A DNA stretch of 32,669 nt from Chitinispirillales bacterium (GTDB lineage: Bacteria > Fibrobacterota > Chitinivibrionia > Chitinivibrionales > Chitinispirillaceae), in assembly GCA_031254105.1 (NCBI GenBank), contig JAIRVB010000001.1, positions 1 through 32,669 of the forward strand, read 5' to 3'. The notes beneath the pieces are model-generated. The model saw only the letters and a list, made by a program, of their open reading frames with translations, did not search any database and was not told the DNA's origin. Made by a program: the position numbers and the translations under genes. This document shows positions 1 through 2,804 of this stretch, one piece after another. Within the stretch, counting starts at the first letter, position 1. The number at the start of each line of letters is the position of its first letter.

Positions 1-92
1 TAGAAGCCACTAAAAAGATACTGGCAAAACAAGGCATTGCCAATGCAGAAGAAATTTTGAAAGAACTTCGTAAAAGTCTTGGTGAAGACTAA
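1..92 (+). CDS. C-terminal tail of an Rpn-like protein, cut by the window edge
   Basis: An open frame enters from the left edge (first full codon at position 3) and stops with TAA at 90-92. Its last 29 residues end in LRKSLGED, exactly like the gene at 125-322. The two stretches 1-92 and 231-322 align base for base at an offset of 230, with scattered differences. The tail is charged and helical, as in the C-terminal region of Rpn/PD-(D/E)XK nuclease family transposase proteins. Only the tail is visible, so the nuclease domain cannot be confirmed. The family call rests mainly on the second copy, which carries the recognisable MLLTEW start of the tail domain. Confidence 0.5.
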   Translation, partial: EATKKILAKQGIANAEEILKELRKSLGED

Positions 93-124
93 CTCCAGGC
101 AACCACGGAAGTGAGGTTACAAAC

Positions 125-322
125 ATGCTGCTTACAGAATGGAAATTTGAGGATGCGTTGAAAGTAAGGGAAGAGGAAGCGTGGGAAGCGGCCCGAAAAG
201 CGACTCGGGAAGAAACAGAAAAAAAAGCAATAGAAGCCACTAAAAAATTACTGGCAGAACAAGGCATTCCTAACGCGGAAGAATTTTTGAAGAAACTTCG
301 TAAAAGTCTTGGTGAAGATTAA
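125..322 (+). CDS. Stand-alone C-terminal domain of an Rpn-like protein (65 aa)
   Basis: This encodes 65 residues, starting MLLTEWKFEDALKVREEE and continuing as a Glu/Lys/Ala-rich helix that ends LRKSLGED. The sequence resembles the tail that follows the nuclease core in Rpn family (PD-(D/E)XK transposase-like) proteins, where a stretch like MLLTEW..EDA precedes a charged helix. It has its own ribosome site, GTGAGGT at 111-117, about 8 bases before the ATG, so it is probably translated. It follows the tail of a related gene by 32 bases and is closed by a terminator hairpin. In enterobacterial rpn genes a short C-terminal protein made from an internal start is known to inhibit the full-length nuclease. 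A similar inhibitor role here is inference. It could equally be a leftover of a duplicated, truncated gene. Confidence 0.55.
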   Translation: MLLTEWKFEDALKVREEEAWEAARKATREETEKKAIEATKKLLAEQGIPNAEEFLKKLRKSLGED

Positions 323-329
323 CCCCCCA

Positions 330-361
330 AAGGCGGTTTTACTTCGTTGACCGCCTTCTTT
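330..361 (+). terminator. Rho-independent terminator after the Rpn-like tail gene
   Basis: AAGGCGGT (330-337) pairs with ACCGCCTT (350-357) over 8 bp around a 12-base loop, followed by a T-rich run. It lies 7 bases after the stop codon at 322. Confidence 0.7.
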
Positions 362-409
362 CTACACCACTGTCTGTACGCAGGGGCGGACAACAGCCGC
401 GCCCGCCAA

Positions 410-742
410 TCATTTTTTCATTTTCCCGCCGGACAAATTTTTAACCGTATCTGACAGCGTTTTAATTGTTTCCTGTTGCGATTTTACAACCTCTAAAAGC
501 TCGGTTTGCTCTATTTGTTTTTGCAGATATGGTTTGCCGAGAAATAAATAATTCAAATCAAGCTCTAAGAAATCTGCGATTATCACAATATTATTATAGG
601 ATGGATTTTTGACTCTTCCTTTTTTCCATTCAGTAAAGAAACTTGTATTAATGTTTACCATAAGTAAACAATCTTTTTCAGTCATTCCTTTTTTATGAAT
701 GCTGTCCAATAGTATTTCAAGTACTTGTTGACTATCACGCAT
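410..742 (-). CDS. XRE-family DNA-binding protein (110 aa)
   Basis: Small helix-turn-helix protein, probably a repressor. Residues about 5-70 fit a Cro/C1 (XRE) fold, with a recognition-helix region around NTSFFTEWKKGRVKNPSYNN and a following helix IIADFLELDLNYLFLG typical of XRE proteins. Residues 75-105 are Gln/Glu-rich and likely coiled, probably for dimerisation. The ATG at 742 has a good ribosome site (GAGG, 7 bases upstream on the minus strand). The gene diverges from the small gene at 874, and the intervening 131 bases hold a perfect inverted repeat (783-806), so autoregulation plus control of the neighbour is likely. The targets are inferred. A prophage-type or orphan repressor is equally possible. 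Confidence 0.75.
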   Translation of the reverse strand: MRDSQQVLEILLDSIHKKGMTEKDCLLMVNINTSFFTEWKKGRVKNPSYNNIVIIADFLELDLNYLFLGKPYLQKQIEQTELLEVVKSQQETIKTLSDTVKNLSGGKMKK

Positions 743-873: not shown

Positions 874-1089
874 ATGTCTGCAACACCCGACAAGCCAATT
901 TACGAAATCATCGCCTACAGAGGTTCGCTAATCGCTTCAAAAGTATGCGATGATATAATCTGCGCATCAAAAATTGTTATCTCATGTTATAACGGCAAAC
1001 TTATAATAATGCTTGACCCGCCGTCTGATTTTATAGAAAAACCTATAAAAGCCCTTGCGGCGCTTCTATACATGATAACATCGGGATAG
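874..1089 (+). CDS. Unknown small protein, divergent from the XRE gene (71 aa)
   Basis: The reading frame starts at ATG 874 with a strong ribosome site, AAGGAG 7 bases upstream, and stops at 1089. The protein is 71 residues with no signal peptide. It alternates hydrophobic beta-like strands (YEIIAYRGSLIA, KIVISCYNGKLIIML) with a final hydrophobic helix (IKALAALLYMITS). I do not recognise the family. Sharing a divergent intergenic region and a perfect palindrome with an XRE repressor suggests the two are co-controlled. A toxin-antitoxin-like or regulator-partner role is possible, but the sequence gives no direct support for it. Two cysteines (residues about 26 and 31) are present without a recognisable metal motif. 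Confidence 0.6.
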   Translation: MSATPDKPIYEIIAYRGSLIASKVCDDIICASKIVISCYNGKLIIMLDPPSDFIEKPIKALAALLYMITSG

Positions 1090-1268: not shown

Positions 1269-1778
1269 ATGAAAAAAAGTATAAAAAACACCGTAATTTT
1301 TGGTCTCCTGTCCGCAGCCGCGCTATTTGCTCAGTCCGAAGGAGCATTTGAAAGAGAGGGGTCCGCAAGCGCGTCCGCGCCTGCGGGGCTGCTTGATCCG
1401 TCAAGAATCACTGTCAATCACTCAATGAGTTTTGCCGCGGGCGGCTCGCGTATGTCTGACATAAAATCACAAAGCGTCTACTCCACTATGTTTCAATACA
1501 AGTTTGACGCGCCTGTGGTGCTTCGGCTTAATTTTGACATGCCCTTGCACTCAACATTCAACAGCGCGCAGAATTTCACCGGAGACAATCTCGCTTCAAT
1601 GGATTACTTCAGAAACATGCCTGTCGATGCGTCAATCTCATGGCAGCCCAGCCGCAATTTTATGTTAAGTCTCGCTGTTATCAAACAGCCGGAATCATAT
1701 TCTTATTTCTCTAACAGATCATTCTTCATGAATTCTTTCAGAAGCGACCGCTACAGAACATCATTCCAAAACCATTAA
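1269..1778 (+). CDS. Exported protein of unknown function (169 aa)
   Basis: Residues 1-21 (MKKSIKNTVIFGLLSAAALFA) form a clear Sec signal peptide with likely cleavage after Ala21. The mature part has a Ser/Ala-rich stretch (27-40), then alternating strands such as ITVNHSMSFAAGG, YSTMFQYKFDAPVVLRLNFDMPL and DASISWQPSRNFMLSLAVIKQP, resembling a short outer-membrane or periplasmic beta structure. The C-terminus is polar and Phe/Ser/Arg-rich. No catalytic motif is visible and I do not recognise a named family. The ribosome site is weak (purine-poor upstream), but start and signal peptide agree. It stands alone, with a palindrome 100 bases upstream. Confidence 0.65.
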   Translation: MKKSIKNTVIFGLLSAAALFAQSEGAFEREGSASASAPAGLLDPSRITVNHSMSFAAGGSRMSDIKSQSVYSTMFQYKFDAPVVLRLNFDMPLHSTFNSAQNFTGDNLASMDYFRNMPVDASISWQPSRNFMLSLAVIKQPESYSYFSNRSFFMNSFRSDRYRTSFQNH

Positions 1779-1829
1779 TTTTGTTGACAAACAATGAACT
1801 TGATTTGTAACTTGTAACCTGTAATTTGC

Positions 1830-2804
1830 TTACACTGTCTGCCCTGTCATTCTGAAATACTTATCAAGAACTAAAAGCGAAATCAACTTTTCTCTTTTTT
1901 TATCAAAAAATTGAGCCGCGTATTCATTTGCGTTGCGGATGATATCTTCGGCTTTTTGCGGGTGTTCGATATAATAAGTCAGTTTTTCTTCCAGACCGGA
2001 AAAATCCTTTTTGATCTCTATGTAATGGTAATCTGGGATAAGTTTACCTTCCATAAACCATGTTTCATATGTTGGCCGCGGCATGACCGCGAGAGAGTTT
2101 GATGACATCACCCACTTGAGGTTGCTTGCTACATCGTTGCCTTCGAGGCAAAAAATAAATTTGTACGGGAGATGGTCGTAAAGCCTGATAGGTTTTTTCT
2201 TCCACTCAGCGGGAATCTGATTATTTTTGGAGATGGTTCCAAGATCGCACAGGGGATTATTGAAGTACATTTGCATGAATTTTTCACGGTGCGGTTTGCC
2301 TGTAACAGCTCCTCTGAAGATTGCCTTGTTCATTTTATTGCAAAAGGGACGCTTATCAGTCAAAAATGTAAAGTGCCGGAATTTCGCGAGTTTCAAAACT
2401 ACGGAGTTTGCGTTATCGCCGGCGATAGGGCGGCTCTTTACGATGGAAGGTTCATCTGGAATATGCGTTACGTCGCCGAAAGCAAACCCGAATTTAAGGC
2501 GGCCGTCAAACCACCTCAAAAACTCATTCGAGTCAAAAAAGTAAACATTACTGTTATGACAATTTTTGAGCTTGAAGTCAGATATTTTTTGATTGCCCGC
2601 AGCGGCTCCGGGTTTTAACTTGCAGTAATAGTCTACTCTGCCGAGTATGTAGCCTCTGTCATCCCTTTTATCAAACGCGGAGAGCGTGTGTTTAAGCCGT
2701 GTTCTGAAAATAATCTTAGGTGTAAACAGTTGAGAATAGCACCGTAAATGATAAGTAAGCTTAAAATTTTTTCCCCCGCACAGGATCTGAAATAATTTAT
2801 CCAT
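1830..2804 (-). CDS. GT90 (CAP10/LpsA-like) glycosyltransferase
   Basis: Predicted 324-aa cytoplasmic sugar transferase of the CAP10/lipopolysaccharide-modifying (GT90) family, which adds sugars to cell-surface glycans. Family-like features lie in the C-terminal half: a FRGAVTGKPHREKF motif, then YKFIFCLEGNDVASNLKWVM, MPRPTYETWFMEGKL and a final KAEDIIRNANEYAAQFF helix that typically closes these proteins. I place the start at the ATG at 2804, preceded by GGAGAGG at good spacing. A TTG at 2861 would add 19 residues and overlap the upstream gene's stop by 3 bases, but its ribosome site is poorly spaced. It follows the WalJ-like gene closely and is probably co-transcribed. The acceptor (LPS or another glycan) cannot be told. 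Confidence 0.78.
   Translation of the reverse strand: MDKLFQILCGGKNFKLTYHLRCYSQLFTPKIIFRTRLKHTLSAFDKRDDRGYILGRVDYYCKLKPGAAAGNQKISDFKLKNCHNSNVYFFDSNEFLRWFDGRLKFGFAFGDVTHIPDEPSIVKSRPIAGDNANSVVLKLAKFRHFTFLTDKRPFCNKMNKAIFRGAVTGKPHREKFMQMYFNNPLCDLGTISKNNQIPAEWKKKPIRLYDHLPYKFIFCLEGNDVASNLKWVMSSNSLAVMPRPTYETWFMEGKLIPDYHYIEIKKDFSGLEEKLTYYIEHPQKAEDIIRNANEYAAQFFDKKREKLISLLVLDKYFRMTGQTV

Follow-up and report, generated by a model that had tools for sequence, protein, structure and literature searches.

A probable free rpnS gene duplicated from the 3′ end of rpnL in a Fibrobacterota genome

The closest described systems are the Rpn gene-within-gene toxin-antitoxin pairs, in which RpnS is translated from inside the rpn gene and blocks RpnL (Zhong et al. 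2023, PMC10327210, a preprint). The parts of the preprint drawn on here describe RpnS as encoded either within the rpn gene or as a separate gene. Second rpnS copies behind rpnE (ypaA) and behind rpnC are reported there to have arisen independently, rpnS has been lost by deletion or fusion, and tagged RpnES has been detected from ypaA. In the same parts, the origin of the variable Rpn C-termini is left open. RefSeq annotates E. coli ypaA as a pseudogene and RpnE as inactive. A literature search restricted to openly available papers listed no other account of free RpnS genes.

The window analyzed here is the whole 32,669-nt stretch of DNA from a Chitinispirillales bacterium and corresponds to contig C52 from base 1 onward, in a 3.68-Mb genome of 56 contigs. 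The same sequence at a 230-base offset, noticed in the sequence-only reading, is confirmed as a direct repeat. Positions 1-96 and 231-326 are identical at 84 of 96 bases (88%), and this is the only direct-repeat family reported within 1-1500. The first copy holds the final 29 codons of a reading frame, which are all that the contig start leaves of the upstream gene, and the second copy forms the 3′ end of a 65-aa ORF. The repeat spans just the last 92 nt of this 198-nt ORF because the window opens at base 1 of C52. Over the 29 shared codons, the tail and the 65-aa ORF are identical at 24 residues and at 76 of 87 bases. The ATG of the ORF at 125 is preceded by GAGGT with a spacing of 7 nt. The features of the region are given below.

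1-92, forward strand: last part of an rpn reading frame (codons at 3-89, stop TAA 90-92), the remainder lost at the contig start; 24/29 residues shared with the C-terminus of the 65-aa protein, with a match to the rpn tail on contig C38
93-124, forward strand: 32-nt spacer with the copied internal ribosome-binding site (GAGGT, 113-117); the same bases are found inside the C38 rpn frame
125-322, forward strand: probable free rpnS ORF, 65 aa; 69% identity to the in-frame rpn tail on C38
231-326, forward strand: copy 2 of the 96-nt direct repeat, copy 1 lying at 1-96; from the direct-repeat comparison
330-357, forward strand: stem-loop 3′ of the rpnS stop, a possible transcript end (-13.5 kcal/mol, z -4.78); missed by the terminator consensus scan
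410-742, reverse strand: HTH-type gene facing rpnS, with a weak HTH_26 match below the cut-off; its flank is shared with the rpn gene on contig C4

The terminator consensus scan found no terminators (0), the stem-loop at 330-357 included. Beyond the HTH gene, a palindrome (TATAATACAGAA/TTTTGTATTATA) has been observed at 783-806, between the start of that gene (742, reverse strand) and a 71-aa ORF at 874-1089 (forward strand). A promoter-like match at 759-788 lies near the palindrome, which could be an HTH operator.

It is likely that 125-322 is a free rpnS gene that arose as a tandem duplicate of the 3′ end of rpnL, starting at the internal ribosome-binding site. The 65-aa sequence is also found on C38 of the same genome (69% identity), and there it continues upstream in one frame. 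This frame continuity, together with the rpn identity of the genes on contigs C4 and C55, identifies the ORF as a stand-alone RpnS segment of an Rpn protein, and the way the tail runs on in frame into Rpn on C38 bears out the proposal of the sequence-only reading that the ORF is a C-terminal Rpn segment. That reading also gave the second copy a start and Shine-Dalgarno (SD) site of its own. The ATG at 125 and the GAGGT at 113-117 are indeed present, but the SD is the copied internal one of rpn and not a new signal, the same bases as window 113-117 lying inside the rpn frame on C38. The SD and ATG of the free rpnS are copied, and the same start is conserved inside the rpn genes of relatives. 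As expected of an RpnS, the 65-aa ORF begins at the internal SD and ATG of rpnL.

In this genome, every complete tail of the subfamily (8/8) carries an SD-like site followed by an ATG that lies 51-68 codons before the frame end, while most Rpn frames of the same genome outside the subfamily lack an SD and ATG near the usual place when ATG starts alone are considered. The start methionine (225) occupies one of 21 invariant columns in an alignment of 14 relatives. The internal start of rpn is marked by a codon-level bias in this subfamily. The start motif is carried by 79 of the 142 frames examined; GAG is the codon of the SD-core glutamate in 76 of these 79, compared with 927 of 2316 other glutamate codons of the same genes and with 37 of 68 catalytic glutamate codons, and the serine before it is encoded by TCG in 32/48 cases compared with 118/1118, counts that are not independent, given the relatedness of the frames and two duplicate pairs among them. 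An SD count of 73/76 has not been taken as evidence, since the rule behind it is loose and picks other ATGs too.

The sequence-only reading suggested a free gene right after a full-length nuclease gene, and rpn genes with an intact nuclease residue set and the same tail start are present in the same genome. Contigs C4 and C55 both end inside rpn genes, with 230 codons up to the contig end. With the A of the equivalent internal ATG taken as base 1, both ends fall on base 20, and the last 119 nt of both contigs are identical to C38:1-119. Both genes exceed the cut-off for Pfam PF04754, Transposase_31 (27.5 bits on C4 and 26.1 on C55 vs 21), and stay below those for Pfam PF12784, PDDEXK_2 (21.5 and 21.2 vs 27.4 bits) and NCBIfam TIGR01784 (28.7 on C4 and 28.9 on C55 vs 52.1 bits). 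At E ≤ 0.01, TIGR01784 is matched 29 times in the whole genome (G000). In an alignment with E. coli RpnA, the C4 and C55 proteins keep each of the five active-site residues compared, D11, D63, E82, Q84, and R94, positions at which mutations were made by Kingston et al. (2017, PMC5350276, as far as the part of that paper used here describes). Of the other three aligned Rpn proteins, that of L124 is without D11 and that of L132 has a lysine at R94.

Part of the HTH gene of the window (405-661) has an 89% identical DNA copy at C4:101420-101675, just 5′ of the rpn gene at C4:101743. Because this flank is common to C4 and the window, C4 probably precedes C52, with a gap of about 86 bases if the copies are equal in length. 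Directly upstream of rpnS would then lie a full-length rpnL, and this is probably the gene that the end of C4 truncates. The two HTH copies, of which that on C4 is truncated, have the same orientation; as direct repeats, they may flank the rpnL-rpnS unit. We consider it quite unlikely that the frame ending at 92 is instead a free tail in an array and not the end of a full-length rpnL. Just 29 of its codons are visible and a Treponema locus (L184) has two consecutive free tails, but C4 ends in a matching rpn gene whose HTH flank is common with the window. C55 carries Cas9, Cas1, and Cas2 genes and one CRISPR repeat ahead of its rpn gene, while C38 has 13 copies of this repeat behind its rpn tail in the stretch examined. 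Since the same repeat is found on both, C55 and C38 probably form one locus. If this join holds, that rpn gene (L210 on C55, L042 on C38) sits between cas9-cas1-cas2 and the repeat array.

Six contig ends of this genome lie inside rpn frames of one subfamily, since C38, C44, C47, and C52 start there and C4 and C55 end there. Such ends could point to an assembly artefact at the contig end, yet the two copies in the window differ at 12 of 96 bases, the same junction is present on C38 with a truncated second copy, and similar loci occur in other genomes. An artefact is, as a result, extremely improbable.

Family searches with the 65-aa protein gave no Pfam, NCBIfam, or PADLOC family over the cut-off. 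DUF4351 (PF14261), which reportedly marks free RpnS in certain species, was matched neither by the window protein at E ≤ 1 nor by the 47 tails at 0.01. No match to the protein was found by tblastn in a plasmid collection at E 0.01 or in one other genome of the genus at 0.001, and a PDB sequence search with the single protein gave no Rpn match. A profile of the 47 tails matches the RpnA C-terminal structure 7th0 with an E of 1.8e-4; this match ranks sixth in 47 rows that also include resolvases and designed helical proteins. The model of the 65-aa monomer consists of a long helix and a short one (pLDDT 79.5, pTM 0.44). For full-length RpnL, a model of the C45 gene gave no Foldseek match at E ≤ 0.001. 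VIA-align placed the PD-(D/E)XK proteins McrC, EndoMS, Shedu, BspD6I, and FokI among unrelated chains, all at Z < 5, so that the modeled RpnL weakly resembles PD-(D/E)XK nucleases.

The recurrence of free copies has been assessed by comparing each rpn tail with up to 700 nt downstream. In a first set, drawn from the own genome, family members, and one E. coli control, 6 of 59 frames had a downstream match. The control, rpnE-ypaA, was recovered (177 nt, 84%, gap 12 nt). In the same family, L124 (G009) has an intact free copy behind rpn. In L119 (G011), a second tail is fused in frame and followed by a decayed third; at 1483-2751 (reverse strand), a single frame of this Rpn contains both tails, which differ in type, and is followed by the decayed third start segment. 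On C38, a 20-nt ribosome-site remnant lies 3′ of the rpn stop. Because these 20 nt of a second ribosome site remain after its stop, C38 shares the duplication. The second set comprised the best 80 of 571 relatives, with 82 rpnL frames, 76 of which were evaluable. Among these best 80, 10 of 76 frames had a downstream match and 66 of 76 had none. Intact free copies were found behind 4/76, namely L132 (Fibrimonadaceae), L167 (a Deferribacterales record), and L184 and L189 (Treponema); L184 has two free tails in a row. Decayed downstream copies are present at L138, L173, and L208. The upstream control gave matches at 2/73, L198 (29 nt) and L199 (a second rpn gene). The downstream repeat of L120 consists of its last few codons and is no RpnS copy, and short matches at L166 (20 nt), L197 (35 nt), L201 (28 nt), and L124 (12 nt) were left uncounted. 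These rates do not amount to a survey, because many of the genomes are metagenome-assembled and were picked by similarity to the query. The free copy is dispensable for the system, since most loci (66/76) gave no downstream match. The conservation as a separate gene in relatives on which the sequence-only reading depended is nevertheless seen, as intact free copies recur behind four of the 76 related genes and behind L124.

The decayed examples (the C38 remnant, L138, L173, L208, and the third segment of L119), together with the pseudogene annotation of E. coli ypaA in RefSeq, would fit a free copy that is an inert by-product of duplication in the course of decay. For the window we regard this as unlikely. 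The ORF and its ribosome site are intact, and dN is lower than dS over the 29 shared codons (NG86, 0.077 and 0.425), a comparison that rests on few sites and may partly predate the duplication. In addition, the detection of tagged RpnES from ypaA is reported in the part of Zhong et al. (2023, PMC10327210) used here.

The tails differ between loci in the type of their 3′ part. The window, L124, and L167 each have two tails of a single type. In L132, L189, and L119, the second tail keeps the start and the first-helix segment and then continues into a different 3′ module. Similar breaks are found between RpnL proteins with near-identical cores. L132 and L133 share 212/232 residues in the core and 18/18 after the start, followed by 14/41; L170 and L189, from one Treponema assembly, share 217/228 and 18/18, then 13/32; and L131 and L136 share 208/226 and 17/18, then 9/28. 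A pair survey used 83 distinct genes that were split, out of 114. It gave 14 pairs with cores at least 85% identical, and in 7 of these 14 the identity of the last 30 residues was below 0.5; five of the seven were judged to have different modules, and two (0.47) the same module diverged. The free module of L132 resembles the RpnL tail of L131 (72% over 18 aa). Tails can also differ by smaller steps, with one four-residue unit inserted between those of C44 and C47. This four-residue repeat is seen in relatives (C44 vs C47), and no clear one is present early in the first helix of the window protein.

The abrupt breaks between near-identical cores and their tails fit an exchange of the 3′ module. 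It is possible, although we hold it with some doubt, that the main role of the free copy is to supply an alternative tail, as a cassette. Recombination within the conserved segment of start and first helix would then swap the C-terminal module of RpnL, and the specificity of toxin and antitoxin would switch together, which is compatible with an antitoxin function. The second tails of L132, L189, and L119, the break between L132 and L133, the five clearly different modules among the seven divergent pairs, and the likeness of the L132 free module to the L131 tail speak for such a role. Against it, first and second tail match in type in the window, L124, and L167, no before-and-after pair of one strain has been seen, and fusion or loss of rpnS is already reported in the part of Zhong et al. 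(2023, PMC10327210) considered here. If true, it would explain near-identical Rpn cores with unrelated tail ends, and exchange of tail modules via free copies would provide a testable origin for the variable Rpn C-termini.

In the reading that we favor, the free gene acts through its product. The 3′ end of rpnL would have been duplicated in tandem from the internal ribosome-binding site to give the free rpnS, and both genes may be read from one transcript. The long first helix of the 65-aa protein would pair with its counterpart in RpnL and so restrain the nuclease, and the protein would supplement the RpnS that is translated from the internal start. Judged from its sequence, the 65-aa protein is probably a separate inhibitor (antitoxin) of the nuclease, a defence protein that cuts DNA.

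Orphan modules behind the CDI/Rhs polymorphic toxins have a conserved 5′ segment in common with the preceding gene and an alternative 3′ part. The toxin is delivered in those systems, whereas the module here would, by analogy, be the tail of a cytoplasmic nuclease. With the Rpn gene-within-gene systems (RpnL/RpnS), the rpn genes of this subfamily share the nuclease core, the internal SD and ATG, and the variable helical tail, but the window has a free second copy besides the internal one. The sequence-only reading called this a new arrangement, a claim that does not hold, as Zhong et al. (2023, PMC10327210) describe rpnE/ypaA and rpnC in E. coli. Since free rpnS behind rpn is already described in the part of that preprint cited here, the window is a new case of a known arrangement. 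What is new are the intact free copies behind 4/76 related genes in other bacteria and behind one gene of the same family (L124), as well as the second tails in which a different 3′ module follows the retained start and first helix, in line with the tail differences between RpnL proteins that are otherwise nearly identical. The arrangement of rpnL and a free rpnS is thereby extended from E. coli to a member of the Fibrobacterota, with intact copies also in Treponema, Fibrimonadaceae, and Deferribacterales records. The E. coli pairs rpnE-ypaA (rpnES) and rpnC-rpnCS, as far as they are described in the preprint, resemble the window in having a second rpn C-terminal copy with SD and ATG right behind the gene. 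The gap is 12 nt in rpnE-ypaA and 32 nt in the window. RpnE is called inactive by RefSeq, whereas the C4 and C55 rpn genes keep the active-site residues, the window's own upstream gene lying beyond the contig start. Compared with E. coli rpnE and rpnC, the window belongs to another subfamily and another phylum, which suggests an independent origin.
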